DNA of 22,801 nt from a virus. Both the position numbers and the translations under genes were made by a program. The DNA is taken from IMG/VR virus record IMGVR_UViG_3300036985_004614, positions 1 through 22,801 of that record. The stretch is one strand, 5' to 3'. Below the pieces are notes generated by a model. It was not told where the DNA came from, made no database searches, and saw only the letters and a program-made list of their open reading frames with translations. Shown here one piece after another: positions 4,465 to 22,760 of this stretch; the stretch's first letter is position 1; every line of letters starts with the position of its first letter.

Positions 4465-5532
4465 ATGCCAATTCTTCAGGCAGATGACATTGCAGATCTC
4501 ATCACGACGACCCAGCGCAATCTGGGCGAAATGAAGTGGACCGATCTTTCGTACTCCCTTCAAGAGCACATCGCTCTTCCCCAACTCCTCAACAAGAACA
4601 AGGTGTCGTTCAACAGCGGCACTGGCATCCAGTGGAACCTGATGATTGGTACCACTGGCTCTACTAAGGAAACTGGACTCTACGCAACCGACTCGGTCAA
4701 CGTGTCGGATGTGATGATTACGGCCAATATTCCGTGGCGGCACATTTCGACTTCGTACGCCATTGAGCGCCGCGAAATCGCGATCAATCGCTCACCGGCG
4801 CAGATTGTTGACCTTGTTCGTATCCGTCGTCACGACGCGATGGTGGACATGGCCGGCTTCATGGAAACGCGCTTCTGGCGCCGACCAAGCGGCAGCAGCG
4901 ACACGTTGTCGATCTACGGTGTTCCGTACTGGATTACTTGGACTGACAACAGCGCAACCGCTGCAAACGGTGGTTTTGACGGTGGCAATCCGACCGGGTT
5001 TTCTTCCGGCGCTGCCAATGTCGATTCGACAGCGTATAGCCAGTGGAAGAACTGGTGCGGCAAGTACACCAGCGTCACTAAGGATGACCTTATTCAGAAG
5101 TGGCGCAAGGCTTCGACCTTCACCAACTTCAAGGCTCCTGTGGCGCAGCCGGACTACCAGAATGGCAACATGTACGGCTACTACACCAATTACAACGTGA
5201 TTGGTCAGTTGGAGCGCGTCCTTGAAACCCAAAACGATAACCTCGGTAACGATGTCGCTTCCAAGGATGGTCGCGTCACGTTCCGTCAGGTTCCCGTGAC
5301 GTGGTGTCCTCACCTCGAAGGCCGCGCAGGCGATCCTGTCTACGGCATCAACTGGGGCGCATTCCGTCCCGTCTTCCTCTCTGGCGAATACATGCGCGAA
5401 GAAGGCCCGACCAAGGCCAGCAATCAGCACACTGTCTTCCAGACGTTCATCGACACCACGATGAACCTCCAGTGCGTCAATCGCCGCGTTCACTTCGTCC
5501 TCGCAACTCAATCCCCAGACGTTTCGGCCTGA
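4465..5532 (+). CDS. Major capsid protein (HK97-type fold expected)
   Basis: 355-residue shell protein. The N-terminus (MPILQADDIADLITTTQRNL) is the helical start typical of a group of phage coat proteins. A beta-rich segment follows (residues about 45-95, with SFNSGTGIQW and the Thr/Ser-rich ITANIPWRH) that fits the E-loop. Next comes a long amphipathic helix (SPAQIVDLVRIRRHDAMVDM, then GFMETRFW) that fits the spine helix, and then an alpha/beta P- and A-domain with many Tyr, Trp and Asn. No separate protease gene is visible in the cassette, and the short N-terminus gives no sign of a cleaved delta domain. A clear Shine-Dalgarno, GAAAGGA, sits before the ATG. The fold is inferred from this pattern and from position after the scaffold. 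Confidence 0.85.
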   Translation: MPILQADDIADLITTTQRNLGEMKWTDLSYSLQEHIALPQLLNKNKVSFNSGTGIQWNLMIGTTGSTKETGLYATDSVNVSDVMITANIPWRHISTSYAIERREIAINRSPAQIVDLVRIRRHDAMVDMAGFMETRFWRRPSGSSDTLSIYGVPYWITWTDNSATAANGGFDGGNPTGFSSGAANVDSTAYSQWKNWCGKYTSVTKDDLIQKWRKASTFTNFKAPVAQPDYQNGNMYGYYTNYNVIGQLERVLETQNDNLGNDVASKDGRVTFRQVPVTWCPHLEGRAGDPVYGINWGAFRPVFLSGEYMREEGPTKASNQHTVFQTFIDTTMNLQCVNRRVHFVLATQSPDVSA

Positions 5533-6340: not shown

Positions 6341-6367
6341 CGCGGTAAAGACATCTCTTACCTTAGC

Positions 6368-6408
6368 AACACGACCTGCCACATGGCAGGTCGTGTTGTT
6401 TTATTTGT
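6368..6408 (+). terminator. Intrinsic terminator of the head operon
   Basis: A perfect 13-base-pair stem (6368-6380 with 6385-6397) closes a four-base ACAT loop and is followed on the plus strand by GTTTTATTTG. It lies 27 bases after the stop of the last plus-strand gene and just beyond the stop of the convergent minus-strand gene. On the minus strand the stem is followed by GCTAAGGTAAG, which is not T-rich, so it should act mainly for plus-strand transcription. The stem contains the 18-base sequence shared with the hairpin at 20262-20279. Confidence 0.88.
6374..6391 (+). repeat. 18-base hairpin repeat, copy 1
   Basis: ACCTGCCACATGGCAGGT, a 7-4-7 inverted repeat inside the terminator stem. 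The identical sequence occurs on the minus strand at 20262-20279. The flanks of the two copies differ, so the shared unit is exactly the hairpin core. This copy lies directly after the stop of the ribbon-helix-helix gene. Confidence 0.85.
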
Positions 6409-6547
6409 TTGTGGCTGCCGCTAGGTGTATGCACTCGGTCATGGCATCTGTGATGCTTTTAGATCCAAGTTGTGCCATAAGCCCAATAAGTATGTCGTAG
6501 TCAGATTCTCTGATCCGAATACTTACCGTCTTCTCTTTCCGCTTCAT
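6401..6547 (-). CDS. 48-residue ribbon-helix-helix (Arc/MetJ/CopG-like) protein
   Basis: A small basic protein beginning MKRKEKTVSIRIRESDYD and ending ITDAMTECIHLAAATNK. It fits the ribbon-helix-helix pattern over its whole length: a basic arm; a strand TVSIRIR whose alternate residues would enter the DNA major groove in a dimer; helix A from SDYDILIGLMAQLG; a turn at SKS; helix B from ITDAMTECIHLAA. Its ATG overlaps the stop of the giant gene (ATGA, 6547-6544), and a perfect AGGAGGT lies just upstream inside the giant gene's last codons, so it is translated from the same message, probably with coupling. Such proteins usually act as dimeric DNA-binding repressors. Target unknown; the adjacent 18-base inverted repeat is an obvious candidate. 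The gene is short, but domain fit, strong RBS and coupled start support it. Confidence 0.8.
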   Translation of the reverse strand: MKRKEKTVSIRIRESDYDILIGLMAQLGSKSITDAMTECIHLAAATNK

Positions 6548-9500
6548 TCGACCTCCTGAGATTCAAATCCTTCGCGGTCAACGAGGATCTTTGCAAGACG
6601 GTCATTGACCTGCTTAAGTCGGCGTTGTCGCGTATCAAGCGTACGGTCGTCAATCTTACGGCTCACACGGCGGGAGATATCCGGCTGCTTCATAAGCAAC
6701 TTCATGTTGGTTGGAAGCGGCGCTTCTGGGAACAATTGGTTCCAATATGCAACTTGCTGACGCGCTTCGACCATTTTGCCAGAAGCAATTAGTGATGAAA
6801 TGTCATCAAGAACACCGTCAATTGCTTCCTTCATTGCGACAACCTTGAGGTATTCAAGGCTTTCCAAAGATTCGCGCACACTTCTAAATCCAAAAATGCC
6901 TCGGATTTGTTCTTCTGTAGTCTTGCGGAATTGCAACCGGCCTTGCTTGTCGTACTTATTTGATTCTCCAACAATCAGATCAATGCCAGTTTTCAATTGC
7001 TGCGCCGCCGGGGAAGACGACATAACGCCTTGGTAAAACTCATCAAATCCGCTTTGATAAACAGCATTCTTGTCGGTCAATGAACCGTACACGTCGCCAA
7101 TTGCCGACAGTGTTGGCCCGGCAAGGAATCCGCCAAGCATGTCATACACGGTTCGACCGTATGGTTTTGGAAGCAGCACAATAGAACCGGAGATGTCAAC
7201 TCCAGCCGCTGCCGGCAAACCGAACGAAATCATGTTTGCTGCGTTTTCTCCAAGTTGCTCTCGCAAATTTTGATAGATGTCCCATGCGGTGGCATTGTCA
7301 TCGTCAGTAAGCCAGTCAGCAATGAAGTCAAACGCCAAGAATAGTGGCAAACCCTTAAGACCGCCCATGACAAGGAACGATGTAATCCATCGGGCCTTCA
7401 TCCCAAGCATGTCAGTGCGCTTATTCAATTCTCCGGTCTTGAAATCTCGGTCGTTGAAAATGTTGTGCGCCAATCCAAGCGACGAAACCATGAACCTCTT
7501 GTATTGGAGCAATGTTGCTCGCGCGGGTCCGCGGAACGCTACAGGGTTGTTTGCCTTGCTAAAGACAAACTGTGTCTGAGCAACGCGCAAAAGGGCATGC
7601 TTTGCTGCCATTTCATCAGACATTCCCATTTCTTCGCGGGCATAGGTGTAGAACGCAAAGAACGTGAAATTTTGATTCCGGCTTTCCGGCCCTGAAATCG
7701 GAGACTTCTCAAGGATTCGTTTGATGTTTTCGTATGCCTTGCTAAACCAGCCGCCTCCGCGAGTAAGTCTAAATTCTCGACCTTCGTACCATTCACCATT
7801 CGGTCGCAAGTAGCCGTACTTGGCAAATACTTCCTTGGCTTCCTTGCTGTTGTAACGGGCGATGTACTTAAGGAAATTACGGGTTCCAATGATTGGGAAT
7901 ACCGTCTGGAACGGCTGAAGCGAGTTCACGACCTGCTGTCTTACCGTCCAAAGTTGACGCATCACGTTGACGGTGCGAATCATTTGCAACCATCGACGAG
8001 TAGGCATTGGACCAATGTATGTGCGGAGCACTGGGATGCTCGCAAACGCGCTGTCCATAAACTGCTCAAACTGGCTTTGGCGGAAAGTAGTCATGTAGTC
8101 CAGCGAATCTTGAAGGTGATTCGACCAGCCAACATATCCCTGCCGCTTCAAGTCTTCGATGGATGCGGTCACATCTTTGCGAAGGCGATTGAAGTAAAGC
8201 CACTTGTAATAGCCAGAAGTCTGCGCCTCCCACGCGCGCATGAAATCCATGTCAAAGCCTTCCTTGCCCTTTCGCTCAAGGATGGATGCGTAGAACCGCT
8301 TCTTACCTTCGTTGCGTCCAATTTTGCCGCGCAACATTGCACTAACCGCATCTGATTCAATATCAGCCGCTTCTTCGATTTGGCGGCGAAGCATGTCGTA
8401 TTGCTTGCCACTCAATCGAACAACATCTGGAGGAACATGCGTCTGGATCTTGATTTCCATTTGCATGATGTTGTCTTTGTTGATTCCGGGAGGCGGAGCC
8501 TTCTTGAACTGACGAAGACGGCGAATCATTGCCGCTTGAGTTGATTCAGTAGCAGTGCCACCATCCATGCTAATGGACCGTCGCGCAATTCTCTTCGCCT
8601 CTGCCTCGCTCTTTTCTTCTGCAATTGCTGCGTCATATGCAGCCTTGTCGTACCAAATTCCTTCGTACGCTCCAAAGAAGGCATGGAAGATGTGCGAGAA
8701 CTGGCGTCCCCAGTTGTCTGGAACCATGATTTTTACAAGAGCCTCGCGAGCATCTTCTGCATACAGATACTCGCCAGAATCTTCGTCAAAAATCATTTTG
8801 ACTTTCTCGCGCTTCGTAGGTCCGTATCGGACTTCTTCAACCTTCCAGTTTGCTCCGTTTTCTTTTGCAACTTTGGCGAGGCGAGCGACTGGCATAAACG
8901 CGACGGTTGCGGCTGCGGCTTGACGCTTTTCGGCAACGATACCAAGCCGCTGCTGTTCTCCGACCTTTTTGAATTCACGCAACACGTTGATAACGTCGTC
9001 AGTTAGACGTGCGCCCGAATCATCGGTCCATTGTGGGTCGCTGTTATCTTTGCTTGGATCGTAATAACGGTCCATCAACTTAAAGAACTCTTTCCCATTG
9101 TCAGCGCGATACTTCTTTGGCAACGCTGCATACAGATCTTTACCCTTGGCAATTACGCCTTGAGTTACGCGCATGCGTTCAAGATCGGTCGATACAAGCG
9201 TCTCGGCAACTCGGCGTACAAGAGGAATTCCAGATGACCACGCAGAGTTAAGCAGTGGGATAAACCACCGCTTGAACATCCCAATGTCGCCTTCTTTCTT
9301 TCCGCCCGTAATTTTGATGTCAGCGTTTGACCCAAACAAAGACCGAACAGCAGCAAGTGCTCCGCCTTTCTTTGTCGAATCCTTTACGCCAGCCGGCAAC
9401 GGAACATCCGCGTCCATCTCATAATCAACAGATGCGTTTAGTTGCTTGGGCAAATCGACTGTAACGCCAAGTTCTTGCCTGATTTCCGCTGAAACATCTT

Positions 9501-12500
9501 CCTGCGGATATGGGTCATACGGGAATGTCCGCTCAACGGAAATCCGGTGCGCTTCTTGAATTTCTTCAGGAACTACGACTTCCGCAATTGCTCTGGTGTT
9601 TTGTCCTGCGGGTCCGTTGGCATCGAAGTAATCCTCAGATTCTGGGTCTGAGAATCGTCCTGAGAGTCCATTTCCTTCAGCAACGACGCCAGAAAGCGAT
9701 CTTGCGTTGACGCGCTTCCCGAATCGGTAATCAGTGAACGCAGCCACTCCTTGTGTGTCATTGAAATTTCCTTCTGCTCCAAATGTAATTGACTCAACAG
9801 CATACGGGACTGTTTTGGCAATTACGCCAATGCTCTGAAGGTCAGAGAGTGTCAGGAGCAATTCTTTGTTGCGGATCTTGATGATTGCGTCGTCATTTGG
9901 AGATTCGTTCTCGTTGCGAAGCACGTTCGCCTTAACTGCGGGATCGCTTTCTGCAACGTAGTGAATTCGCATGCCGAACGATTGACGAGATTTGCCATCA
10001 TTGCTTGTGTCAATTCTGGCATCGTTTTCGATTTCCACATCCCAGTTTGGATTTGCCAATTCAATTTGGGCGGCAATTGCAGTTGCCTCTTCAATTGTGA
10101 TATTGGCTGGGAACCTAACGATATACCCCGGCCTTGCGTTCGGAGAACGCTCGGCTCCATAAGGAACAGTTTGATTCACAGTAACACGCATGGCGGTTCC
10201 GCTTTGCGTGACCATTTCTCCAACCTGAGAAGCAAAGTTGTTTGAATCAAAGTTTTGGTACCGAACAACCATGCTTACATTGACAGTGCGCCTGTCCGTT
10301 CGCGGATTTATTTCATAGCGTACGGATACGACATCCTTATTTCCTTCAGCGATGCTGCTAATCCGTTCTACAAATTCACCAGCAGGAGCATTGGCGGTCT
10401 GATCGAACTCTGTCTCAATCAGCGTAAGTGGATCCCGATCAAATGATCTTTCAAAAGATCCGCCTGCACCCTGAGCAGTTGTCCAGCCGTTATTCCTCCA
10501 TTGATTCTTAAACGAGAACCAAAGAAGAGCCTGTAAGTTTTTGGTGTCAATCGGCATGATGCCGCGGGCAGTAATTTCAGAAGCAGCGGCCTCCATGATT
10601 TTCTGGGCAAAACCATATTCGCCGCTGATATTGTCGATATCGCCGCCAATCACATTTCCCTTAACCGATGTTTCGGCGTAAGCGGGAATCCTCGGCAAAC
10701 CCATAGACCAGCGGATTGCTCTTGCGGCCCAAAGATCAATAGTCGCGTTCGTGCTGCGTCCAGTGAGGTTGGCAAAGAACGTGTGGACCTTGGGGCTCTT
10801 CACATTCTTGGCCCAAACTCCAGCCATGACGCGCATGGCTCCCATGGAGTTGGTTCCAAACTTCGGATTGACGGCAAGAGTTGCACCTTCAATCAATCGT
10901 CCAGAGTCGTCAAACGCGTCTGGATTTTCCTCTTGAATTGAGTCTTTGAAGTTTTGAATAGCAACGTAATACTCCTGAGGAGTCATTTCAGACTTCTTAG
11001 GGCCATAACGCTTCACCAAATCGTCAATGGTGTTAAATGGTTTGGCCTTTGGAACAACAACTGCTCCCTGCGAATCTTCATATGGATCTACAGGGAAATC
11101 TTCGCCTTGCGATACATAGATAACGCGGCCAATTGTTTTTCCTCGGTATACGCTCTTATTTGAAAGATCGGCCCGCAAATACTTGATTTCAGGGTCTGTA
11201 TTTTCCGGGATTTCAGACTGCTTCAAGTATTTACGCCGGTCAAGAATTTGCTGGCGAATACGGTCGGTTTCTTCGATCCTCTTTTTGTCTGTTGTCCAAT
11301 CAACGTATTCGCTAAGAGCGTCGTCGTAATCGCCCTTGATGAACGACTCCGTCGCATCAATGGCATACGCGTAGTTCATGTCAGCGGGAGTCTGCGGAGA
11401 CAGAGCAGCAAGCAGTTCGGTAAACAGCATTTGCTGATTCCCAAATGCAATGGCAAGACGTTCAAAAATCGCGTCGTACCAAGACTGTTCTTTGATAATC
11501 ATTTGGGCAGTCTGGTCACCATCTTTTGCCCGATTGACAAGTTCCTCGACATGGTCGACAAGGTTGGATTTAGCGGATGCAAGCAACTTTGATTTACGCC
11601 GCTCTTCCCTAGCAATAGCGTTAGCCTTTGCTTCTTTATCCAAGCCCTTCGTGCTGATCTTCTCTCCTTCAAGTCCCCACGGAATGTTCTTGGTTTTGAT
11701 TTTCAAAGAGCCATTATCAGAAATGGAAATTGAAACCACGGGCGGAATTGCCCACCCAAAATCATTGCCCTTAGATTTCTTGTTGTCGAGAATGTGACGA
11801 GAAACCATTTGCCCGTAAGCGGCACGAACAAGAAACTCAATAGTGTTTGCTACGTCGCCCTTTGCCTTTGTTGACTTAACAAACGAAGCAATGGCCTCTT
11901 CGGTGTCCTTATCAAACTTTCCGTCATAAGAAAGAGCGTCGGCAAGGCTGTCGCCTTTGATTTTGGCAACAGTCTCATATGCGGAAGCAAGTGCTCGCTT
12001 GCCGTATGAATTCATGGACTTGTATCCAGCCATTTTCTGGATAGCAGGCATATCCAGAGAAATTGCTGAAACCTTTTCGGACCCGTCTTTAAGTTGCTTG
12101 TAGTTTTGGGCAAACCATCGCGATTCGCTCATCCGCCTTGCGCCATTTGTAATTGCAGCCAACACGCCATTCTTGATTGTGCTCAGTGCAATTGAGTATT
12201 CCTTTGAGATTGATACTCCTGCTAGTGGCACTGTCTTCCCACCCATTTTCTTCTTAGAAACAGGACGGGCAGACGCTTTATGCGTCATTTTCGTGTTGTT
12301 GAATTCGTCTGTGCGAGCGTCGGCAACAAAGCCTTCAATTGAAGTTATTTCTCCAATAGACGGTAGCCCGCTTGCTCCGAATGAAATTTTTTCAGGTGCT
12401 ACTCGTGATAGATGGTTGATTGCAAATGGACGCAAAACCCTGTTTGCTTCTCGCAACAGCGCAGGGAATTGGTCGATGTTCTTTGGATCAATGTCCGAAA

Positions 12501-15500
12501 GCGCAAGACCTACACCCGTATCCATGAATTTAAACCACGACGGATTAAATGCCTCGGCAACAATCCGGCCAATACTGTCTGCCAAAGAATAGATGTTCTT
12601 TGAAACAGACAGCAGTCGCGGTTTAAAGTTCAGGTTTAGGCTTGAAGTTTGAGCATCACCAGAAGATTTTAGCCCGGCGCCCATCGCCGCTAACGTATCT
12701 GCGGAGAAAATGCCCGCGCTGCCAACCGATGACGATATCTCGTTGCCAATGCGGGCATACTCACCAGTCGCTAAATTTCCGGCTGCGTCTTTTGTTCCAA
12801 AAATTTGTGAAGAGACAAATCGAACAATCGCTGTAATTTCGGTAGCGACGGCAAAAACTGTTTTTGCAAACCAGTTGTACCCAGCAGTACGGGCATTCGG
12901 ATTTTTAGCAACCCTGTTGATATCTGCAAGAATCAACTCAAGTTCTCTTGGGTCAGCCATAATCGCATGGCTTATCTTTGCAGCAATCCGAACAATGATT
13001 TCTTCCCTTTTATGGTCTTCTGTTGGATAAACGTCTTGCTCTAACTTTGGAGCAACGCGAGCAACAATTGCGTCGTAAAGTTCTGGGGCTGCGGCGCGAA
13101 GATCAGCAAGAATCTTTCTATGAGTTTGAATAGATCCGCGCTGGAAAAGAAGTTTGCGAGAAATGATGTTGTGCCATGATTCATGCAGAATGGTGTCGAT
13201 AAACCCAATCCGTGCTTGAGCCTCGCCTTCAGACTCTCCCTTTACAGAATCAATGTCTACAACAATCAATGGGAAAGTGACGTAGAACTCGCCTTCGCTA
13301 AGTGGTTCGCTTGCCTCTTTGTCCGAGATTTTGTAATCGTTCCCAATTTTTTCAACGCGAAGTGTCACCGCGTTTTGTGGCAAAGCGTTTCCATAAAACT
13401 TCTTTTGACCACTTCTTCCAATGACAATTGAGCCGAGTCGGTTTGCTTCCCGGATTGGGTTAGAAGATTCAGTAAACCCAAGGCGAGTTATTGATTTGTC
13501 GTTGTTAGACAAAAACCGGTAAGAGCCCCCATCAGGTGAACCAGATCCCTTAACAGTGCTTCCGCCTTCATGTGACATTGCAGAAGCAACTGGATCGGGA
13601 AGAGAAACGTAGTGAGATGGTCTTTGAGCACCAGTTCCAAGTTGCCCAGACAGATATTGTTGAGCAAGATTGGCAAGCGTCCCGTCAGTGATTCTTGGAT
13701 CAGAATTTGGATTTACTACAGTTGAGAAAACCGTAGGCTTTTTAACGGATACAGAACTTGCAACCACGATGACGCGAGAAGACTTAAGTTTTCTCTTTGA
13801 TGACGGTTGTGCATCAAACGGGATATCTGATTCTTCAATTGGATAACCAATTCGTCCGATTCCCATTTCTGGCTCGTCGCCAGCGTCATCAATGAAATCG
13901 TTTAGTCCAACTGCAATTTCATGGCGAATGTCAGACACTAATTTTGGAACTGGATTTTCTGTTTCAACAGGCTTAGTTCCTACTTCAAATGGCGCAATGC
14001 CTTCTGGCAAGGCATCCATGATGTAGTTCCCTGTTCCAGCCGGTCTAATAGCGCCAAGGCCGACAAGAATCTTTGTCCCTGCTACGCTCAGACCAAAATT
14101 TTGAGGTCCAAAAACCCGACCAGATTCCATGCGTCGCAGTTGGTCAAGTTCAATTCCCTTCAGTTCAAGATCTGGGTTGGACTCTCCAGCAAGATCTAGC
14201 AGGAAATGCAAAGTGCTTACGCCAGCAGCGCGAGCCTCTTGGTGGATGTTTCTCCCAGAGAACTTTTTGGCTGGTTCTTCCTCAATGCCCGGAAGTTCAG
14301 AGATATCAGGCTTCTTTTTCGGTCGTTCTTTTGCTTTTGGTTCCGGCGCGGGCGTGGGCTTAGGCACTGGTGCTGGCTCTGGCGCCGGAGCAGGCGCAGG
14401 CGCTTCCACAGGCTTTGCGGGAGGCACAGGGGCCGGTGCTGGGGCAGCAGGGGCAGGCTTTTTCCCTCCAAGAACAGGCTTTGATGTTTTGGAGATACCT
14501 TCCCTTGCCTTCAGAGACTTCCATTGGTCAAGCATCTTGACCCGAGTCTCTGCGGCCATTGGCCTTCCATCAGTCAATGCAACAGTCAAGCGACTAAGAG
14601 ATTCTTTTTCTTTCTTTGAAAGAGCCTTGCCGCCAGAGACTGGCTCTACTTTGGGCAATGCAATTTCTGGCTCGTACGGCTTAGTTGCAGAAAGCCGTTC
14701 AGTGAGCGCATCAATTTCTTTTTGAAGTCGAGCCTTTTCCTTTTCCGTCGTTGTCGGTTCAAAGAAGGCTTTTCGCTTGACGTCTAATTGCCGCTTCTCG
14801 TACGGACTAAGCGGTTTCAAATCCTCTGGCTTAGTTGGCTCCTTTGGTGCCGGTTCCGGTTCCGGTGCTGGAGCGGCTGGCTTTGCGATTCCTTCGCGAG
14901 CCTTTAGTTTTTTATATTCCTCTACGAAATCCGCTCTGGTGGCATCCTTCATTGGAGTGCCATCAGTAAGCATTTGTTCAATTTTCCGTAGACGCTCTAC
15001 CTGAGAAGCGCGAAGAGGGCTTCTGGTTGCATCTGGAGTAACGGCTGGCAAAGGCGGAGCAGCAAAAGTCTTTTTGCTTTTCTTGCGCTCTTCTAATTCG
15101 TCGATTTTGGCGATGAGTTTTTCGCGCTCTTTTTTGTCTGTTGTTGCAGCCAGATCTTTCTTTCGCTGCTCAAGCCTTCGCAATTCATAAGGGCTAAGAG
15201 GTTCTAGATCTTCTGGCTTAACTGCAAAAAGATTACGCAGCGCGAGATCGCGGCGTTCTCGCAGCAAATCAAATAGCGGCTTCCCTTCCGGACGCTTATC
15301 GCTCTGAACAATTGAATCAATTTCGGCAAGGCGAGCCTGCTCTGTTGCGTCAAGCGGCTTTGTGCTTCTCTCTACGTCAATCAGTTTTTGCTTTGCAGCA
15401 GACCGGATAAGGGCTTCAACAAATTTTGCCCTGTTGCCTTCGTTTGAAAGAACCTCTTTCATTGCTGCGGCAGCAGCCGCGTCTGGAAAGAGTCGAGACA

Positions 15501-17610
15501 GATTTGCTTCGGTAAACAGAAGGCCCGGAGTTGTGAGAAGAGTTCTGACTGCTTCTTTGTTTTTGGAAACAAGCAGGTCAATATCTTCTTCATCGGATAC
15601 GCCTGCTGCAATCAAGCCGAAATTAATTCCACTGTTGTCAATTGGAATAGCGGTTTTTGTTTTTCGGTCAATAAGAGCAGGGCCGGAATCAAAAACAGTC
15701 GATTTTGCCTTTGGTTTTTCTTCGACTGGTTTTTCTGCTTCTACTTTTGGCTTTTCCAACTTAACAGCATCAGCCGGGACTTTCAGACCGCGGCGTTGAA
15801 GTTCTGCAATAGCGTCCTTTGCAGTTACACGAAGCGTGGTTGGTCCAGCGGTGGTTTCTACTTCTGTTGCATCGCCAACAGACTTTCCGCGAGCGGCGTC
15901 TTCAAGTTCCTTCTGTGATAGATCGGTTGCATTTCCGCGAGTAAATGCGCCGCTCTGCTTAATCCCATTTTCAAACGCTTGCCAAGCGATATCGCGGTCC
16001 TTCTTCTCCAGCATGTACTGTCGAAGATCAAGTGCTTGAACGACCTTGCCGCCGATACCGCCAGCGCCTGCGCCGCCAACAAAACTTGTCAGTGCATTAC
16101 TCCACGCCTCGCCGTCGCCAGACAGGAGTTGCTTAAGCAAGAGTTCGCGCTTCTTGTAATCGCCTCCAGAGGCATCCCATGCAAGAACTTGAGCCATGTT
16201 GCCAAATGCGTCTTCGGCAACTTCTTGGAAGCCTTCGGCAAATGCACCTGCCGCAACTTTCTTAATGACGTATGGGCTTGAACTAAACTTCTTTACCGAC
16301 GCAGCAACAGCAGCCTTAGAAAGAACATTTGCTGCATCAAGCGCCCTGCCGCCAAGGATGGTGTATCCGGGAATTGCGTTCAAAATTGTGGACGAAATTC
16401 CGTAAAGAGAACCATCTACAGCCGCATAAGCGCGGGCCGTTTCCTCATCCACGCCAGTGCGTAGTGCTTCAAGGTATGCTTGCGTATACGCAGATCCAGC
16501 GGCTTGCGCTCCTGCGCTGCCAATGAATGTCGCGATAGCCGCTGGAGCGGATGCTCCTCCGCTTAAAATTGCAAGCGCAAGAGACGTAGAAAACTGACCA
16601 ATACCGTCTCCAATTGCTGCAATAGTTTGTGCGGCGGTATTCTCCTCAGAAGTTCCAATCATCGACTGCTTGATTGCTTCAAGTGTTGCAGCCGTGTTGT
16701 TGAAGAATGTTGCCCCTGCCTCTCCAGTGGTTCCTGTCTGGAACCCAAGGATGTCTTCTGACCAAACCTCAAGGCCGGTAAAAATGTTTGAGCCAAGTCC
16801 GGCAAATCCTTGAAGTGCGGATACCACGCCGGCAGGAACGCTCAATGCAAGCGCGCGGCCAACTCCAGCGCCGCCGGTCCTTTGAATCTCAATTGCTTTT
16901 TCTTCAAGTTTCCGGTTGATCCACGGAGCAAATTCACCACGGCCAATAGCCTTTTCCTGCTCAACGCGGCGACGAATATTTTTGCCAAGATCAAGCATCG
17001 CAAGATTTGCGCGCTCAATTTCGGACATTGACTTTTCATCTCGTACGCGAAGCGATCCTTCTTTTGCTCCGAATTCGGCACCTGTTTCACTTGCCGTAAT
17101 TTCTTTCCACGCATCTGGCCTCATCCCGGCAGCGCGTCGTGCTTCAAACGCCTTCAAAAACCCAAGGTCGCCTTCTTGCGTTTTCATGCCCGGCTTAAAT
17201 CCAAATTCGCCGTAAAAAGCGTCTGGATCTTTTGCCGCATCAAGAGGTCCGCCCGGCTGTACAGATTCTGCATTGCGAATCCATGCGTTGAAATCAACGG
17301 TGCTTGCCGTGCCGCCAGTCTTGTATTTTTTGTCTTCCGGCTCTGGCCGGTAAATACCTTGAGAGCGTTCAAGTTTGCGTTGCGCCTCTGCATCTCGCGC
17401 AGCCATCATTTCAGCATTGGCCGCTTCAAACTGCCGCTGGGCCTCTGCTGGGTTGAATGCTGTGGATGTTGGATCAGCGGCCATTTCGGATGCCGCTTGC
17501 AGTCGAGATCCAACGGACGGCTGCGGAGCAACCTCGTTAAGCATCGGCTCTGCTGGAGCAAGAATTGGGCGTCCGGTCAATGGGTCGACATTGCTATTGA
17601 TCGTGCTCAT
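6544..17610 (-). CDS. Giant multidomain phage polyvalent protein, 3688 residues
   Basis: About half the window codes for this one protein. Visible parts in order: disordered N-terminus (1-130); Gly/Ala-rich hydrophobic region (about 245-475) that could contact membrane; two ~110-residue repeats (801-910, 930-1041); Pro/Ala-rich linker (about 1046-1100); HExxH zinc-peptidase motif HESWH (1476-1480) with a candidate third ligand at Glu1536/1537; a segment with SWYD (Trp2044), LLAALSPQT (2071-2074) and FFANLTG...ATIDLWAARA (Asp2292), resembling HhH DNA-glycosylase-like phage proteins (DUF7178-like); and a helical C-terminal third (about 2730-3688) with a hydrophobic stretch near 3406-3434 that resembles the LPD38-type domain. 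Such proteins are thought to be packaged and injected to protect or process DNA in the host. The ATG overlaps the 879-residue gene's stop (TAATG), with GGAG ten bases upstream. No T7-like or N4-like RNA polymerase motif was found. Confidence 0.88.
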   Translation of the reverse strand: MSTINSNVDPLTGRPILAPAEPMLNEVAPQPSVGSRLQAASEMAADPTSTAFNPAEAQRQFEAANAEMMAARDAEAQRKLERSQGIYRPEPEDKKYKTGGTASTVDFNAWIRNAESVQPGGPLDAAKDPDAFYGEFGFKPGMKTQEGDLGFLKAFEARRAAGMRPDAWKEITASETGAEFGAKEGSLRVRDEKSMSEIERANLAMLDLGKNIRRRVEQEKAIGRGEFAPWINRKLEEKAIEIQRTGGAGVGRALALSVPAGVVSALQGFAGLGSNIFTGLEVWSEDILGFQTGTTGEAGATFFNNTAATLEAIKQSMIGTSEENTAAQTIAAIGDGIGQFSTSLALAILSGGASAPAAIATFIGSAGAQAAGSAYTQAYLEALRTGVDEETARAYAAVDGSLYGISSTILNAIPGYTILGGRALDAANVLSKAAVAASVKKFSSSPYVIKKVAAGAFAEGFQEVAEDAFGNMAQVLAWDASGGDYKKRELLLKQLLSGDGEAWSNALTSFVGGAGAGGIGGKVVQALDLRQYMLEKKDRDIAWQAFENGIKQSGAFTRGNATDLSQKELEDAARGKSVGDATEVETTAGPTTLRVTAKDAIAELQRRGLKVPADAVKLEKPKVEAEKPVEEKPKAKSTVFDSGPALIDRKTKTAIPIDNSGINFGLIAAGVSDEEDIDLLVSKNKEAVRTLLTTPGLLFTEANLSRLFPDAAAAAAMKEVLSNEGNRAKFVEALIRSAAKQKLIDVERSTKPLDATEQARLAEIDSIVQSDKRPEGKPLFDLLRERRDLALRNLFAVKPEDLEPLSPYELRRLEQRKKDLAATTDKKEREKLIAKIDELEERKKSKKTFAAPPLPAVTPDATRSPLRASQVERLRKIEQMLTDGTPMKDATRADFVEEYKKLKAREGIAKPAAPAPEPEPAPKEPTKPEDLKPLSPYEKRQLDVKRKAFFEPTTTEKEKARLQKEIDALTERLSATKPYEPEIALPKVEPVSGGKALSKKEKESLSRLTVALTDGRPMAAETRVKMLDQWKSLKAREGISKTSKPVLGGKKPAPAAPAPAPVPPAKPVEAPAPAPAPEPAPVPKPTPAPEPKAKERPKKKPDISELPGIEEEPAKKFSGRNIHQEARAAGVSTLHFLLDLAGESNPDLELKGIELDQLRRMESGRVFGPQNFGLSVAGTKILVGLGAIRPAGTGNYIMDALPEGIAPFEVGTKPVETENPVPKLVSDIRHEIAVGLNDFIDDAGDEPEMGIGRIGYPIEESDIPFDAQPSSKRKLKSSRVIVVASSVSVKKPTVFSTVVNPNSDPRITDGTLANLAQQYLSGQLGTGAQRPSHYVSLPDPVASAMSHEGGSTVKGSGSPDGGSYRFLSNNDKSITRLGFTESSNPIREANRLGSIVIGRSGQKKFYGNALPQNAVTLRVEKIGNDYKISDKEASEPLSEGEFYVTFPLIVVDIDSVKGESEGEAQARIGFIDTILHESWHNIISRKLLFQRGSIQTHRKILADLRAAAPELYDAIVARVAPKLEQDVYPTEDHKREEIIVRIAAKISHAIMADPRELELILADINRVAKNPNARTAGYNWFAKTVFAVATEITAIVRFVSSQIFGTKDAAGNLATGEYARIGNEISSSVGSAGIFSADTLAAMGAGLKSSGDAQTSSLNLNFKPRLLSVSKNIYSLADSIGRIVAEAFNPSWFKFMDTGVGLALSDIDPKNIDQFPALLREANRVLRPFAINHLSRVAPEKISFGASGLPSIGEITSIEGFVADARTDEFNNTKMTHKASARPVSKKKMGGKTVPLAGVSISKEYSIALSTIKNGVLAAITNGARRMSESRWFAQNYKQLKDGSEKVSAISLDMPAIQKMAGYKSMNSYGKRALASAYETVAKIKGDSLADALSYDGKFDKDTEEAIASFVKSTKAKGDVANTIEFLVRAAYGQMVSRHILDNKKSKGNDFGWAIPPVVSISISDNGSLKIKTKNIPWGLEGEKISTKGLDKEAKANAIAREERRKSKLLASAKSNLVDHVEELVNRAKDGDQTAQMIIKEQSWYDAIFERLAIAFGNQQMLFTELLAALSPQTPADMNYAYAIDATESFIKGDYDDALSEYVDWTTDKKRIEETDRIRQQILDRRKYLKQSEIPENTDPEIKYLRADLSNKSVYRGKTIGRVIYVSQGEDFPVDPYEDSQGAVVVPKAKPFNTIDDLVKRYGPKKSEMTPQEYYVAIQNFKDSIQEENPDAFDDSGRLIEGATLAVNPKFGTNSMGAMRVMAGVWAKNVKSPKVHTFFANLTGRSTNATIDLWAARAIRWSMGLPRIPAYAETSVKGNVIGGDIDNISGEYGFAQKIMEAAASEITARGIMPIDTKNLQALLWFSFKNQWRNNGWTTAQGAGGSFERSFDRDPLTLIETEFDQTANAPAGEFVERISSIAEGNKDVVSVRYEINPRTDRRTVNVSMVVRYQNFDSNNFASQVGEMVTQSGTAMRVTVNQTVPYGAERSPNARPGYIVRFPANITIEEATAIAAQIELANPNWDVEIENDARIDTSNDGKSRQSFGMRIHYVAESDPAVKANVLRNENESPNDDAIIKIRNKELLLTLSDLQSIGVIAKTVPYAVESITFGAEGNFNDTQGVAAFTDYRFGKRVNARSLSGVVAEGNGLSGRFSDPESEDYFDANGPAGQNTRAIAEVVVPEEIQEAHRISVERTFPYDPYPQEDVSAEIRQELGVTVDLPKQLNASVDYEMDADVPLPAGVKDSTKKGGALAAVRSLFGSNADIKITGGKKEGDIGMFKRWFIPLLNSAWSSGIPLVRRVAETLVSTDLERMRVTQGVIAKGKDLYAALPKKYRADNGKEFFKLMDRYYDPSKDNSDPQWTDDSGARLTDDVINVLREFKKVGEQQRLGIVAEKRQAAAATVAFMPVARLAKVAKENGANWKVEEVRYGPTKREKVKMIFDEDSGEYLYAEDAREALVKIMVPDNWGRQFSHIFHAFFGAYEGIWYDKAAYDAAIAEEKSEAEAKRIARRSISMDGGTATESTQAAMIRRLRQFKKAPPPGINKDNIMQMEIKIQTHVPPDVVRLSGKQYDMLRRQIEEAADIESDAVSAMLRGKIGRNEGKKRFYASILERKGKEGFDMDFMRAWEAQTSGYYKWLYFNRLRKDVTASIEDLKRQGYVGWSNHLQDSLDYMTTFRQSQFEQFMDSAFASIPVLRTYIGPMPTRRWLQMIRTVNVMRQLWTVRQQVVNSLQPFQTVFPIIGTRNFLKYIARYNSKEAKEVFAKYGYLRPNGEWYEGREFRLTRGGGWFSKAYENIKRILEKSPISGPESRNQNFTFFAFYTYAREEMGMSDEMAAKHALLRVAQTQFVFSKANNPVAFRGPARATLLQYKRFMVSSLGLAHNIFNDRDFKTGELNKRTDMLGMKARWITSFLVMGGLKGLPLFLAFDFIADWLTDDDNATAWDIYQNLREQLGENAANMISFGLPAAAGVDISGSIVLLPKPYGRTVYDMLGGFLAGPTLSAIGDVYGSLTDKNAVYQSGFDEFYQGVMSSSPAAQQLKTGIDLIVGESNKYDKQGRLQFRKTTEEQIRGIFGFRSVRESLESLEYLKVVAMKEAIDGVLDDISSLIASGKMVEARQQVAYWNQLFPEAPLPTNMKLLMKQPDISRRVSRKIDDRTLDTRQRRLKQVNDRLAKILVDREGFESQEVE
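6551..6557 (-). promoter_or_regulatory. Strong ribosome binding site of the ribbon-helix-helix gene
   Basis: AGGAGGT on the minus strand, a full match to the 16S rRNA anti-Shine-Dalgarno, lies four bases (from the last G of AGGAGG) before the ATG of the 48-residue protein and inside the last codons (Gln-Glu-Val) of the giant gene. It supports that short gene as real and independently well translated. Confidence 0.75.
14488..14823 (-). repeat. Protein-level repeat unit 2 in the giant gene
   Basis: Codes for residues 930-1041. It begins DLKPLSPYEKRQLDV, contains LTDGRPM and ends SLKAREGISK. Spacing of landmarks matches unit 1 within a few residues, so this is a diverged tandem duplication with a short Pro/Glu linker between the units. 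Confidence 0.75.
14881..15210 (-). repeat. Protein-level repeat unit 1 in the giant gene
   Basis: Codes for residues 801-910 of the giant protein. It begins DLEPLSPYELRRLEQ, passes through a charged helical region and LTDGTPM, and ends KLKAREGIAK. Unit 2 has the same landmarks in the same order. The unit is Lys/Glu-rich and probably helical. Confidence 0.75.
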
Positions 17611-20249
17611 TACTTCTTATCTCCAGTCTTCTTCTTGACCGCGTACTTTGCGCGAATTCGTTCTGCTTCAGCCTTGTTTCTTGCTGCCTTATTCAACTCA
17701 TCCGACTTTTCGATAATGCGAAGATTTTCTTCGCGCTCCGCTCTGGCCTTGGGTGAGTTTTCCCTTGAAGATCGAATGCGATCTTGCTTTGCTTTTTCAG
17801 CGTTGAACGCAGCAATTTCTTCTTGCCGCTTTGCCGAAAGCGGAAGGTTTTGCCGTTCAAATTCCCGGGTCGCTGCTTCTTGCTCTGCTTTAAACGCGTT
17901 GGCCTTTTCGTTACGAGCAGCCTGATTCAGTCGCTCGGACCGCGCAATAATGTCGTAATTTTCATCAATGTTCTTAGCCGTATCAAGGTAGTCAGAGTAC
18001 GCGCCGCGGCGGCTTTCTCCAGTCATTTCCTTACGCCGCTGAACAGCCGTTTCTGATTTCTTGCGGTCAATTTCTGCTTGTGTTGGCGCTGGCTTAGGCG
18101 CACTTACTGGCTTCTGCGTCGGCTTTGTTGTTTGCGGCGCCTGAGCAGCGGGCTTAGTTGGTGGCGTTGCGGTTGCCCGGAAATCAGGTGTTGCTCCGAC
18201 ATACCCGTACAGATCGCGAACAAACCGGTCATAGTTTTCTTGGTTCTCAAACGAACCCGGTCGCACCGTTTTAGCCAACTGGTCAATCTCTTCAAGAATC
18301 AACCGACGCCGAGCACGTGGGTCAGATTGAACGCCCTGTTCCGCGATGTAATAATCGGCGTTTTCGTTGAGCGTTTGGAAGATATTTTTGATGTTTCCTT
18401 GATACGACTCTTCGGAACCCATGTCCAGAGCCTTGATGGTCGCAGGAATGTTGTTCTGTCGGAGCGATGCCAGTCGCTGTGTTGGCATCATGGTTGGCGT
18501 TTGTTCGGCAGCGGCGGGCTGCTGCGATGGGATTTGCTTCTTTACCCAGCCCGTGCTCGTGAAATCGCGATCCGGAGAAATTTCGTGTCCAAGTGAGTGC
18601 GCGACATACATTGTCATTGCCGCTCGACCCTTTGGAGACAGTTCGCGATAGAAATTGTTCACAAGAGATTGCAACTGCTCTTGCGCCGGGGTCAGGCTAT
18701 TTGGATCCCAGACTTCGTTCGTAACTTCAAACTTGCGAAGTTCGTCTTCAAACCGATTCCATTCTTGCATAGGCCGTGGGCGGATTGCTCCAGATTCTGT
18801 TGCAAGAATTGCTCGCTGCTGGTCATCAAGGGCAAAGTTTTCAAGGTTCACTGTCTTCGCACTGAACGGAAGTACGCGAACCTGATTTCCACCTTCTGTC
18901 GGCCTGATATTTACAAACTCGCTGTCAACGTCAAGGTCTGCCAATTCGCGAACGGCATTTGGGGCAAAACGAACCTGACCATCTTCGCCTCGAACTGCCG
19001 GAATAGAGAACTGCCTATTTCCTCGGCGCCGAATGCGAGTGGTCCCTTGGTTTCCGGTTTCAACAAGGTATCGGTCTGGATTGATTGCTGGCTTCGCTGC
19101 TTGTTCTGGAACTTCGATTCCCATTGCCTGAGCGACTTTAGAGATTCGGCCCTTACGAGCCTTTTCTTGGTTAGCAAACGCCGTAATGCGGGCGCTTTCA
19201 AACTCCGCGCCAATGTCCATGTTTGGCGCATACTGAGAAAGCAACTCAATTGCACCTTCTGGGTTTGCTTCGATTTGAGCACGAATTTGCTGCTCTTGTT
19301 CGTCAGGAAGCGAAGAAATGATCTTGTCTACAACCGCACGTTCTTCGGCGGTGGTCATTGGATCTTGCTTTGCATTCCATTTCTCAAACGCCGCCGCTGC
19401 GTCATCTGGAGACATGTCAAGTTGATCGACCGCCTGCGCAGCAGTGGCGCGTGACGTGCTTCGGGAAGTCTTGCCGCCTCCCTTTCCTCCGCCAACAACT
19501 TCAACGTCGCCAGTTTCGGGGTTGATGTACTTGGCCCCGTCCGGAAGAGCGTCGATTTCTGGCTGCGTTTGTGGAGCCGGAATAATCTCGCCGGTTGGAG
19601 ACTTAATCGACGGCATGATGTCGCCGGTTGCTGGGTTGCGGATTTGACCGCTACCGACAGTTTCCAAGCCTTGTTGCATAAGGCCAAACTCTTCCGCTGG
19701 AGGAAGGTCGTAGCCAATAGGTGATTGCATCAACTCTTGGCCTGCCATGTACCCTTGGTCTAACTCGTCGGCGCGAGCAGCAATCCGCTCAAATGCTTGT
19801 TGGCGCTGCTCCGGCGAGAACCGCGGATCAACAGCGACAGCCTGCCTCGACTTCTCAAGTTGCTCATAAGCACGGATGTAGTCGCTTCCCGGTCCGGGCG
19901 GCTTCATCTGGCCCGGCATTGGAGGAGCGTTTTGGTACATCTCATTCAGGGACTGCCTAGTTCGCGACCGAGTAGGAGCGATGGAAGGCAACTCCTGTGA
20001 TGGCATTTGGGGCATGCCGCGGCCTTGTGGCTGCGCCTGTGGCGGCATTTGATTCTCTGCGCCAAGAGCAGGCATCCCGTAGGCAGGAGGCTGTGCCTGC
20101 TGCTGCATGCCCGGAAATTGAAGAGGAGACGCGGGGGCTGATGACTTGACGGGCTTGATTGGCGCACCGCGCATCGGTCCATATGTTGGACGATTAACGC
20201 CCGGCTGAGGCATGTCGCCTTCTTGCTCAAATGATGGAAACCGAGACAT
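17610..20249 (-). CDS. 879-residue low-complexity/coiled-coil protein, probable virion protein
   Basis: No family is recognised. Residues 1 to about 125 are rich in Pro, Gln, Met and Gly and likely disordered. Residues about 130-200 are charged and helical. A Gly/Ser-rich stretch (VVGGGKGGGKTSRSTSR) precedes a helical Gln/Glu-rich middle. There is a compact, perhaps folded, part around 390-480 (GTTRIRRRGNRQFSIPAVRG and after). A Pro/Thr/Lys linker leads into a highly charged coiled-coil C-terminus from about 725, with a ~27-residue motif repeated at 763 and 841 (ENYDIIARSERLNQAARN and ENLRIIEKSDELNKAARN). GGGAG lies six bases before the ATG. The gene is coupled to the giant gene by TAATG, so the two products are probably made together and may form an internal head or injection complex; this is inference from position. 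Confidence 0.8.
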   Translation of the reverse strand: MSRFPSFEQEGDMPQPGVNRPTYGPMRGAPIKPVKSSAPASPLQFPGMQQQAQPPAYGMPALGAENQMPPQAQPQGRGMPQMPSQELPSIAPTRSRTRQSLNEMYQNAPPMPGQMKPPGPGSDYIRAYEQLEKSRQAVAVDPRFSPEQRQQAFERIAARADELDQGYMAGQELMQSPIGYDLPPAEEFGLMQQGLETVGSGQIRNPATGDIMPSIKSPTGEIIPAPQTQPEIDALPDGAKYINPETGDVEVVGGGKGGGKTSRSTSRATAAQAVDQLDMSPDDAAAAFEKWNAKQDPMTTAEERAVVDKIISSLPDEQEQQIRAQIEANPEGAIELLSQYAPNMDIGAEFESARITAFANQEKARKGRISKVAQAMGIEVPEQAAKPAINPDRYLVETGNQGTTRIRRRGNRQFSIPAVRGEDGQVRFAPNAVRELADLDVDSEFVNIRPTEGGNQVRVLPFSAKTVNLENFALDDQQRAILATESGAIRPRPMQEWNRFEDELRKFEVTNEVWDPNSLTPAQEQLQSLVNNFYRELSPKGRAAMTMYVAHSLGHEISPDRDFTSTGWVKKQIPSQQPAAAEQTPTMMPTQRLASLRQNNIPATIKALDMGSEESYQGNIKNIFQTLNENADYYIAEQGVQSDPRARRRLILEEIDQLAKTVRPGSFENQENYDRFVRDLYGYVGATPDFRATATPPTKPAAQAPQTTKPTQKPVSAPKPAPTQAEIDRKKSETAVQRRKEMTGESRRGAYSDYLDTAKNIDENYDIIARSERLNQAARNEKANAFKAEQEAATREFERQNLPLSAKRQEEIAAFNAEKAKQDRIRSSRENSPKARAEREENLRIIEKSDELNKAARNKAEAERIRAKYAVKKKTGDKK

Positions 20250-20298: not shown

Positions 20299-20709
20299 TT
20301 ATCTGGTTGCAGAACTACTGCTAGTCCATTTTTTTAATGGACAAGTGGCTGCTGGCATGCGGGCTTTTGTAGTCAATTCTGCCCTATTCCCGGTTCCGCA
20401 CCCGCATCCCTTGCACCAGCCAAGTTCATTTTCTTTAGACGACTTGACCAGCAATGGACATGACTTGCATTGAGAAAGTCTGTTTTGGTAATCGTCTTCA
20501 CTGATGCTGCTCACAACAGCAGACACCTCTGCCTTGATGTATGAAATTGCTTTGCCAAGGATTGTTGGCTGCTGCGGAACAGTGGGCTGAACAGTTGCTG
20601 TTTTGAGGCACCGTTCGCATACGCCGCGGGATGGCGTTCCGCCATACAAGCCAAGATCACAGCATCCTCCGTGTGGGATTTTGCAATCTCTCCAGTGCTC
20701 GCAATTCAT
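20299..20709 (-). CDS. 136-residue Cys-rich protein, probable zinc binding
   Basis: Twelve cysteines in 136 residues fall in two clusters. The N-terminal cluster is MNCEHWRDCKIPHGGCC then VCERC (Cys 3, 9, 16, 17, 31, 34, with His 5 and 13). The C-terminal cluster is CKSC (81, 84), CKGCGC (99, 102, 104) and TCPLKKW (123). A Pro/Gln/Ala linker and a short helix join them. The C-terminal pattern ending in CPLxKW is one I associate with small phage zinc-binding proteins of unknown role. The frame is open further upstream (to 20805), but ATG 20709 overlaps the stop of the 684-residue gene as ATGA and starts exactly at the first Cys cluster, so the shorter form is chosen. Likely two zinc or other metal sites; a metal-sulfur cluster is an alternative. 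Confidence 0.75.
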   Translation of the reverse strand: MNCEHWRDCKIPHGGCCDLGLYGGTPSRGVCERCLKTATVQPTVPQQPTILGKAISYIKAEVSAVVSSISEDDYQNRLSQCKSCPLLVKSSKENELGWCKGCGCGTGNRAELTTKARMPAATCPLKKWTSSSSATR

Positions 20710-22760
20710 CCGACCACCGCGTACCCAATCTGGATGAAGTTTTTGGTTTCGCACGTTGTTCCAGACGTGCCACCATACAAATCGTGGACACCAACTGGAG
20801 TGCAATACTCCGTGGTGTCCCAGTCCACAATCATCAACTCGTACTGGGTTACGGTTACTTGCGCATTACAACAGTCACAGACGTCATATAGCGCAATCCC
20901 GCAAGACGAAAAGATCATTTGACCACATTCAAAGAATGAACTTTGGCAGTTGTGGCAAATAAGAGACGGAACCGGAACGGCAGAGTACGCGATGGCTCCG
21001 GACACATATTGGACCGGCCTGCATCTGCTTTCTGGAGTAATGATTGTCGTATGATTTACGCAATCACCGTTTGCGCCGGGGCATGGCCCGTGTGTCGCAT
21101 ACCACGCCGGGTCAATTTCTGTTCCGCATGAAACCTCAATCTGGTCATAGTTTTGACCGCCGGCTGAGATTGGCGCTGGGCAACATGCCGACGCATATGC
21201 AAGGTCAAGCGTATTTATGCAGTAGTAATGGTCGTACTTGTTCCGGTATTTGACCCAACCCGCATGTGCTCGCTCTACAGGGTGACTCCCTACAAAATCA
21301 ATAAAAATGCCGGGAGATACTGGAGGGTAATACGCACCGCATGGTGCTCCTACAAAGTTTCCCGGAGTAGATACTGGGTACTGCATGCAGTTTGGTGTCG
21401 CGTTTGCGCCGCATACCGCCGGGAATGCGCCGTCTGGAATTCTGTATTCCCCGAGCGCAAGCATGTACGAGGCGTCCAAAACCGTAGAACTGCACCCAGT
21501 CAAATCCGACGTGTACAAATTTACATCAATGGTAGATGGCGCATTTTCGCAAAACGAATGTACGCAACCGCACCTTGGGTTTTGCCAGCACCAGTTTCCC
21601 GGCTTAAAGTCTAATTCAACTTTGATTGTGAATGACTCTCCGGGCGATGCTTCTCCAACAACATGGGATTCAACAATGGAAACCCCATCGGTAAAACGAA
21701 GCACGTCGTCAGCGTTTAGCCGATCTACCATTCCAAACATGATTCTGAATCTTCCGTGAGACGTGTGCGCAACCCACATGTCTTTTAAATCCCCAATTGC
21801 TTTATTCACTGGGAACCCAATAGCATTTAGGGTTGCAATCAGATCATCTTCTTTGATGTCAATCGCCCACGCTGCTTCTAGTGCTCCGTTTTTAGGCTCA
21901 TCTTCCGCGCATGCCGCTGGTACTCCGCCTTCACCAAGATGGCATGGGTGCGTACCGTCGCCGCACGGCCCAGTATCTCCAACCGTTGCGGTGGAATGTC
22001 CGGGAACAATAGTTATTGGCGCATCAATGCATAGGTTTGCAGTTTCGACTGCGGTTGTTCCGCACCTCAATGAAGAAACTGATCCGCCACACGTTGCCAA
22101 TTGAGTGTAATCAGATGACGGAACTGCTGATTTGGAAACAGAATTAGTTCCAGCAAAGCGCGGAACAACCCGTCTGTTTTCCGCCGGCCACCAAATGACG
22201 TTGTCGGTGGTTACTGGCACTGCGACTGACGGAGTGAGGCCAGTCTTTGCGCAGTCGGTCAGGATGTAAGGGTATGGACCTTTTGGAACTCCGGGAAATG
22301 CTTCCCCGTCCAAGATTCTTGCGCAGGGGTTTTGATCTTTGTTGCCGCCAATAAACGCCAACTTGCCATCAAACGTCCATTGAAACGTATCAACGTACTC
22401 TGTTATTTGACATCCGGCGACCGCCGGTATTGCACTGCCCGTGCAAGTGATGTCAACCTTTGGAGTCGGAACAACCGTGCAAGAACCGCCACACGAAGTT
22501 TGGACCACTGTTCGTTTGGTGATAGTAATTGCAATAGTAGTTTCAATAAGTGCTCGTTGCTTGGAAACGACAGAGTTGTGCCACGCTACCCAAAACGGTC
22601 CATCGTAAAGAGTCGGACCCATTGGATATCCAATAGAGACGTAGCCCGGGATTACTACGTTTTCCTCTGCGCAGCCATCTGTTTCCGTGCAAATTGGCCA
22701 AGCATCGCACAAATCTGGCGACTCGTTGCAGCAGCAAGATCCGCCGTAAACGCCTTGCAT
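20706..22760 (-). CDS. 684-residue cysteine-rich protein of unknown function
   Basis: I count 42 cysteines (about 6%), spread over almost the whole length, with clusters at the N-terminus (SCCCNESPDLCDAWPIC), near the middle (WCWQNPRCGCVHSFC) and near the C-terminus (LICHNCQSSFFEC then VCDCC). A stretch of roughly 100 residues (EDEPKNGALEAAWAIDIKED to ELDFKPGNW) lacks cysteine and may be a separate folded domain. The rest is rich in Thr, Val, Pro, Gly and Tyr, with the beta-rich look of a virion or tail-surface protein. There is no clear signal peptide or membrane segment. The start ATG overlaps the stop of the preceding truncated gene (TAATG), with GGAG eleven bases upstream. Metal binding and disulfide-stabilised virion structure are both possible. 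Confidence 0.78.
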   Translation of the reverse strand: MQGVYGGSCCCNESPDLCDAWPICTETDGCAEENVVIPGYVSIGYPMGPTLYDGPFWVAWHNSVVSKQRALIETTIAITITKRTVVQTSCGGSCTVVPTPKVDITCTGSAIPAVAGCQITEYVDTFQWTFDGKLAFIGGNKDQNPCARILDGEAFPGVPKGPYPYILTDCAKTGLTPSVAVPVTTDNVIWWPAENRRVVPRFAGTNSVSKSAVPSSDYTQLATCGGSVSSLRCGTTAVETANLCIDAPITIVPGHSTATVGDTGPCGDGTHPCHLGEGGVPAACAEDEPKNGALEAAWAIDIKEDDLIATLNAIGFPVNKAIGDLKDMWVAHTSHGRFRIMFGMVDRLNADDVLRFTDGVSIVESHVVGEASPGESFTIKVELDFKPGNWCWQNPRCGCVHSFCENAPSTIDVNLYTSDLTGCSSTVLDASYMLALGEYRIPDGAFPAVCGANATPNCMQYPVSTPGNFVGAPCGAYYPPVSPGIFIDFVGSHPVERAHAGWVKYRNKYDHYYCINTLDLAYASACCPAPISAGGQNYDQIEVSCGTEIDPAWYATHGPCPGANGDCVNHTTIITPESRCRPVQYVSGAIAYSAVPVPSLICHNCQSSFFECGQMIFSSCGIALYDVCDCCNAQVTVTQYELMIVDWDTTEYCTPVGVHDLYGGTSGTTCETKNFIQIGYAVVG

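Follow-up and report, generated by a model that had tools for sequence, protein, structure and literature searches.

The giant gene and its neighbourhood

The window – the whole 22,801-nucleotide stretch analysed here, a 22.8-kb IMG/VR fragment – carries two converging sets of genes. Its plus strand encodes a terminase that is open at the window edge, an SU10-type portal, a small protein, a scaffold-like protein, a major capsid protein and the product of one more gene. The minus strand encodes a Cys-rich 684-aa protein without a family match (20706-22760), a Pro/Gln-rich 879-aa protein (17610-20249) and a giant polyvalent-type protein of 3688 aa (6544-17610), which forms the end of this operon of large proteins. 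The 879-aa gene's stop codon and the giant's start codon share one base. The giant's stop codon is overlapped in turn by the ATG of a minus-strand gene for a 48-aa ribbon-helix-helix (RHH)-like protein (6401-6547), which has AGGAGG ahead of its ATG and is kept in the related phage G011 (L033:12892-13044). Between the converging gene sets we observed a perfect 16-bp hairpin followed by T-rich sequence (6362-6405; -29.7 kcal/mol, z -9), which is probably a two-way terminator. GC3 is 0.69 in the capsid gene (4465-5532), compared with 0.45-0.51 in the genes at 6544-20249.

An earlier reading of this DNA, made from the sequence alone, had proposed a single uninterrupted 11-kb frame. Consistent with that proposal, the giant's frame starts with an ATG and runs for 3,688 codons on the minus strand, from 17610 to 6544, and each other frame across the same DNA contains 75-236 stops. 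To find relatives in viral contigs, we searched first with the portal and then with alignments of the giant. These searches identified seven homologues of the giant, each encoded at the corresponding locus of an independent contig, 42-67% identical to the window protein and 3,674-4,200 aa long where complete. Full-length homologues are those of G003 (3,674 aa), G011 (3,894 aa), G012 (3,902 aa), G013 (4,073 aa) and G010 (4,200 aa); the G006 homologue is a 2,807-aa contig-end fragment. Because intact homologues occupy the same place in independent contigs, the frame is not an assembly artefact. We found no point that supports reading it as an artefact or as a chance open frame, and the probability that we leave to this already refuted explanation is close to nil.

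The G012 contig (44,794 bp) is probably a complete genome, since it has a 99-base repeat at its ends. Its giant gene crosses the end junction and occupies 26% of the genome. Also present in G012 are genes for a DNA methyltransferase and a PAPS reductase-like protein (L049:5757-6965 and 1675-2502). Wherever a contig shows the gene context, the giant lies beside terminase, portal and major capsid genes, which places it in a virion or late-gene setting. The SU10-type portal, together with the fact that no ORF of G012 could be recognised as a tape-measure or sheath gene, supports a podovirus-like context, and the source of the window is probably an uncultured, short-tailed phage.

Across these phages the major capsid protein is 90-95% identical, compared with 42-67% for the giant and 29-67% for the 879-aa neighbour. 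Since the neighbour diverges too, the fast change belongs to the two-gene unit and not to the giant alone. A nucleotide search of the window against 50,697 phage records returned no match, nor did searches of phage records with the portal and capsid proteins – implying that annotated phages include no member of the group that a search of this sensitivity would pick up. Two scans of genome collections found no prophage relatives, and tblastn gave no match for the giant's N-terminal, middle or DUF7178 segments (see below).

Variable slots and a conserved C-terminal end

We then examined the giant from its N-terminus; all features described below lie on the minus strand. Residues 240-560 (15931-16893) form a conserved Ala/Gly-rich region that, based on conservation and hydropathy, may contact a membrane. 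Here 34% of positions are invariant across near-full-length homologues. Hydrophobic peaks are weak (KD19 up to 1.67), with no clear transmembrane helix, and the region has no family match. When we compared an N-terminal profile (A11) with the giants of Hollowayvirus, we obtained only negative-score, colinear matches and set these aside.

The suspected repeats proved to be a tandem duplication of ~115 aa. A self-match of the protein identified two copies, at residues 800-914 (14869-15213) and 929-1045 (14476-14826), that are 42% identical (E 8e-23). Tandem Repeats Finder detected no DNA-level repeat; the duplication is seen in the protein alone. Directly after the second copy, conservation and composition define a Pro-rich linker (residues 1046-1110, 34% Pro) and a hypervariable slot (residues about 1085-1300), which together span 13711-14475. 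About 3% of slot positions are invariant, and relatives carry insertions here. The G013 giant has its slot filled by a BRCT domain (Pfam 4.5e-6; PHROG NAD-dependent ligase 3.5e-8). This BRCT (residues 1625-1679 of that giant, L060:7625-7789) resembles the one in NAD-dependent DNA ligase.

A second variable slot, at residues about 2700-2740 (9391-9513), was recognised from an insertion in G010. The G010 giant has about 272 extra residues at this position, which match phrog_3170. They also match, at 72%, an uncultured phage's crystallin beta/gamma motif-containing protein and, at 46%, a Planktothrix phage protein named 'large polyvalent protein'. The G010 and G013 inserts show that the slots can be filled, which does not imply that their contents are active.

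Beyond the second slot lies a conserved C-terminal chassis, residues 2740-3688 (6547-9393), with 80% mean column identity in 7 homologues. It is more conserved than the enzyme-like parts of the chain and is kept in more distant giants. We used the capsid protein to scan for a wider phage clade and found that the last ~950 aa are kept across it while the upstream parts differ. The L084 giant has the HExWH and DUF7178 regions as well as the C-terminus, and the giants of G021 (3,975 aa) and G020 (4,448 aa) combine the C-terminus with other HExxH motifs. In L085, L114 and L115, similarity is confined to the C-terminal ~950 residues (22-25%), and the available part contains no HExxH. The L108 and L112 giants are unrelated.

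Profile matches define a C-terminal core at residues 3309-3667 (6610-7686) that is common to the window giant, phrog_11358, NF032893 and the Hollowayvirus giants. The end of the chain is matched by phrog_11358 with an E of 1.5e-17, and the matches to phrog_11358, phrog_21376 and phrog_37402 fall near the C-terminal ends of those long families themselves. NF032893 (PLxRFG) scores 58.8 bits, below its cut-off of 100, and the PLxRFG motif is absent from the giant. The C-terminus had previously been read as LPD38-like. A search with PF18857 gave no match in seven records of the group, and we rejected LPD38 for the window giant, whose C-terminus matches phrog_11358 and NF032893 instead. The sister phage G016 does have LPD38 in its giant, which occupies the same locus (53 bits; L128 / G016:C1:7764-8312).

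Zincin-like and DUF7178 regions

Two enzyme-like regions lie between the slots. The first, residues 1290-1600 (12811-13743), is a metallopeptidase-type region recognised by an HExWH motif, a downstream Glu and an AlphaFold (AF2) model. The motif reads HESWH in the window giant (residues 1476-1480; 13171-13185), and Glu1537 (13000-13002), on the second C-terminal helix, is the candidate third zinc ligand. An HExxH is expected by chance 0.011 times per protein of the giant's composition. All 8/8 homologues retain HExWH and, 57-65 residues downstream, an invariant Glu; the G013 giant does so even though the surrounding region is just 13-24% identical. The model (pTM 0.72, mean pLDDT 69) places strands first, then a long helix with HESWH and then a later helix with Glu1537 – the same layout of strands, HExxH helix and second Glu-bearing helix that has been described for polyvalent MPTases (PMC5512222). 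A Foldseek search of the PDB with this model gave no significant match (lethal factor ranked fifth, E 1.3), and SprT-like and DUF1570 profiles match one member weakly (E 0.08 and 0.014, respectively). The zinc-peptidase assignment made earlier thus holds for the motif, which is conserved with its downstream Glu, and did not gain a significant fold match. Judged from the motif and the model, residues 1290-1600 are probably a zincin, and we consider it likely that this zincin is active. Not all giants of the wider clade have HExxH.

The second region, residues 2000-2420 (10351-11613), is a DUF7178 domain and a candidate HhH-glycosylase-like domain, identified by profile match and model. Pfam DUF7178 matches all members (6/6, best 5e-13; residues 2251-2299 in the window giant), as does phrog_3842, and the domain is here embedded in a giant chain. 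We identified a conserved block, PK-x6-N-x10-D-x4-R, that aligns gap-free with K120, N127, D138 and R143 of Escherichia coli endonuclease III; this alignment was made by eye and picked after seeing both sequences, with the reference sequence confirmed as 2ABK. The candidate catalytic residues Lys2274 (10789-10791) and Asp2292 (10735-10737) are 18 residues apart (K-x17-D-x4-R), as are K120 and D138 of endonuclease III. Both are invariant in 8/8 homologues, and the very divergent G021 giant keeps K, N, D and R at the same spacing.

With a poor AlphaFold model of residues 2000-2420 (pTM 0.46), Foldseek ranks 1-4 against the PDB were structures of the queuosine glycosylase DUF2419/Qng1 with queuosine ligands, none of them significant (E 0.33-0.81); as these are one family, the four ranks count once. 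The HhH-type glycosylase Pa-AGOG was the second of two PDB sequence matches of the alignment (32 gap-free columns, E 0.98). DUF2419 has been described as similar to DNA glycosylases (PMC9406330), and a DNA glycosylase of Pyrobaculum aerophilum, taken here to be Pa-AGOG, has served as the template for modelling it (PMC4425180). The segment thus resembles DUF2419/Qng1 and Pa-AGOG in its top structural ranks, a weak sequence match and paired Lys and Asp, but differs in that no score is significant and their own Pfam profiles fail to match it. The Pfam HhH-GPD, AGOG and Q_salvage profiles gave no match, and a low-power profile-profile comparison with a three-sequence endonuclease III profile did no better than shuffles. 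Within a viral structure library, the model significantly matched two giants of uncultured phages (E 3e-9 and 6e-9), which may or may not belong to the same phage group.

The sequence-only reading had called this segment DNA-glycosylase-like. The conserved domain is borne out, in the form of DUF7178, and its HhH identity is suggestive. We lean towards an HhH-glycosylase fold; a glycosylase function and its target are guesses. The negative outcome of every direct profile test and the low confidence of the model would also fit a new fold that resembles HhH glycosylases by chance. We regard this as a sizeable minority possibility, against which stand the catalytic motif spacing and the fact that two different methods both indicate the AGOG/DUF2419 group. 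Alternatively, DUF7178 could act on a nucleoside or nucleotide as DUF2419 does – for instance, to break down a signalling nucleotide of the host or to recover a modified base. The queuosine ligands of the best structural ranks fit such a role. However, the DUF2419 matches lack significance (E 0.3-0.8), DNA is the substrate of Pa-AGOG, the sequence match, and the Lys-Asp spacing of 18 is that of endonuclease III, whereas DUF2419 entries name K199 and D231, 32 apart. A nucleotide-directed role seems improbable to us, and base excision on DNA, instead of a nucleotide, is put forward tentatively, at below even odds.

A candidate ejection protein

DUF7178, the giant C-terminal module and an HExxH region lie in one frame in a late or virion context, and a sister phage has LPD38 – consistent with the earlier assignment to the phage polyvalent type. 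Like the polyvalent proteins of Iyer et al. 2017, the giant has many unrelated domains per chain, a probable zincin hub and a late-gene context; the main text of that paper contains neither the word glycosylase nor BRCT. The set and order of domains, suspected earlier to be undescribed, differ from those found in the sources searched. Membership of the polyvalent or ejection class is, in our judgement, probable.

Known phage giants provide the closest comparisons. N4 gp50, the virion RNA polymerase (vRNAP) of Schitoviridae, likewise is a chain of about 3,500 aa with an HExxH domain, encoded by the last gene of a minus-strand operon. This 3,500-aa protein is ejected as a beads-on-a-string chain (PMC12633501), with a flexible domain order and a very large C-terminal region needed for packaging (PMC5512222, PMC12633501). 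Unlike gp50, the window giant has DUF7178 instead of an RNA polymerase domain, for which Pfam, PHROGs and NCBIfam gave no match. Homology between the two C-termini was considered and rejected, as there is no sequence match. The giants of Hollowayvirus (F116-like phages), such as 8P_023 (5,145 aa) and Epa33_62 (3,799 aa), are homologous to the window giant over their last ~370 residues (27%, E about 1e-12). They also resemble it in their HExxH domains, in the exchange of the middle between conserved ends – among themselves, the ends are kept and the middle differs – and in their position as the last gene before the lysis genes. These proteins are annotated 'structural protein'. They differ from the window giant in carrying the PLxRFG motif, and 8P_023 has methyltransferase, SNF2 and LPD23 domains, none of which we found in the window giant.

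We propose that the giant serves a podovirus-like phage as an internal virion (ejection) protein, a functional counterpart of N4 vRNAP and the Hollowayvirus giants, in which zincin self-cutting frees a base-removing enzyme; we assign this reading as a whole a probability of roughly 45%. The C-terminal ~950 residues would act as a chassis that places the giant in the capsid and takes it out, and the N-terminal Ala/Gly-rich part and the linkers would allow the chain to be threaded through the tail and to contact membranes. Either within the capsid or once inside the recipient cell, the zincin-like domain would cut the chain, possibly at the Pro-rich linkers, and so free the neighbouring DUF7178 enzyme. 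Once freed, this HhH-glycosylase-like domain would remove a base from DNA or from a nucleotide. Polyvalent MPTases have been suggested to process their own chain, but N4 vRNAP is packaged uncut (PMC5512222), so self-cleavage of the giant is not a given; that the zincin cleaves its own chain strikes us as plausible, at somewhat below even odds.

Base removal need not be part of such a protein. The ejection protein could have purely structural and DNA-handling tasks. DUF7178 would then be an HhH-type domain that binds DNA without catalysis and holds the genome fast inside the capsid or the channel, and the zincin would serve just to mature the particle. HhH folds often just bind DNA, and the greater conservation of the C-terminal chassis relative to the enzyme-like parts fits this explanation. 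T7 gp16, moreover, has a cytoplasmic DNA-binding part (PMC8954989). Against it, the Lys and Asp are invariant with a catalytic-like spacing down to G021, and the BRCT and crystallin-motif inserts and the LPD38 of the sister phage resemble effector cargo. We consider a purely structural role unlikely.

At its most far-reaching, our proposal of a self-cutting ejection protein would have one threaded chain deliver both a protease and a base-excising glycosylase or lyase, on a chassis that in related phages carries different cargo domains, in order to attack host DNA, or to repair or un-modify the incoming genome, before phage gene expression – a scenario that we offer as speculation and hold to be rather unlikely in this full form. 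If DUF7178 is a glycosylase, a Pfam family of unknown function would gain a function, and base excision would join the activities of polyvalent phage proteins.

The category of polyvalent giants is already known; what is new here is the combination of domains, the slots and the series of variants. In this series of phages the capsid genes are near-constant and the giant changes module by module, so that the packaging or ejection chassis can be separated from its cargo by comparison alone. The exchanged inserts of relatives are best read as cargo on a constant packaging end. A separate observation concerns the crystallin-motif insert of G010 (L032:9068-10015), which has relatives in 200 phage records, mostly of mycobacteriophages.
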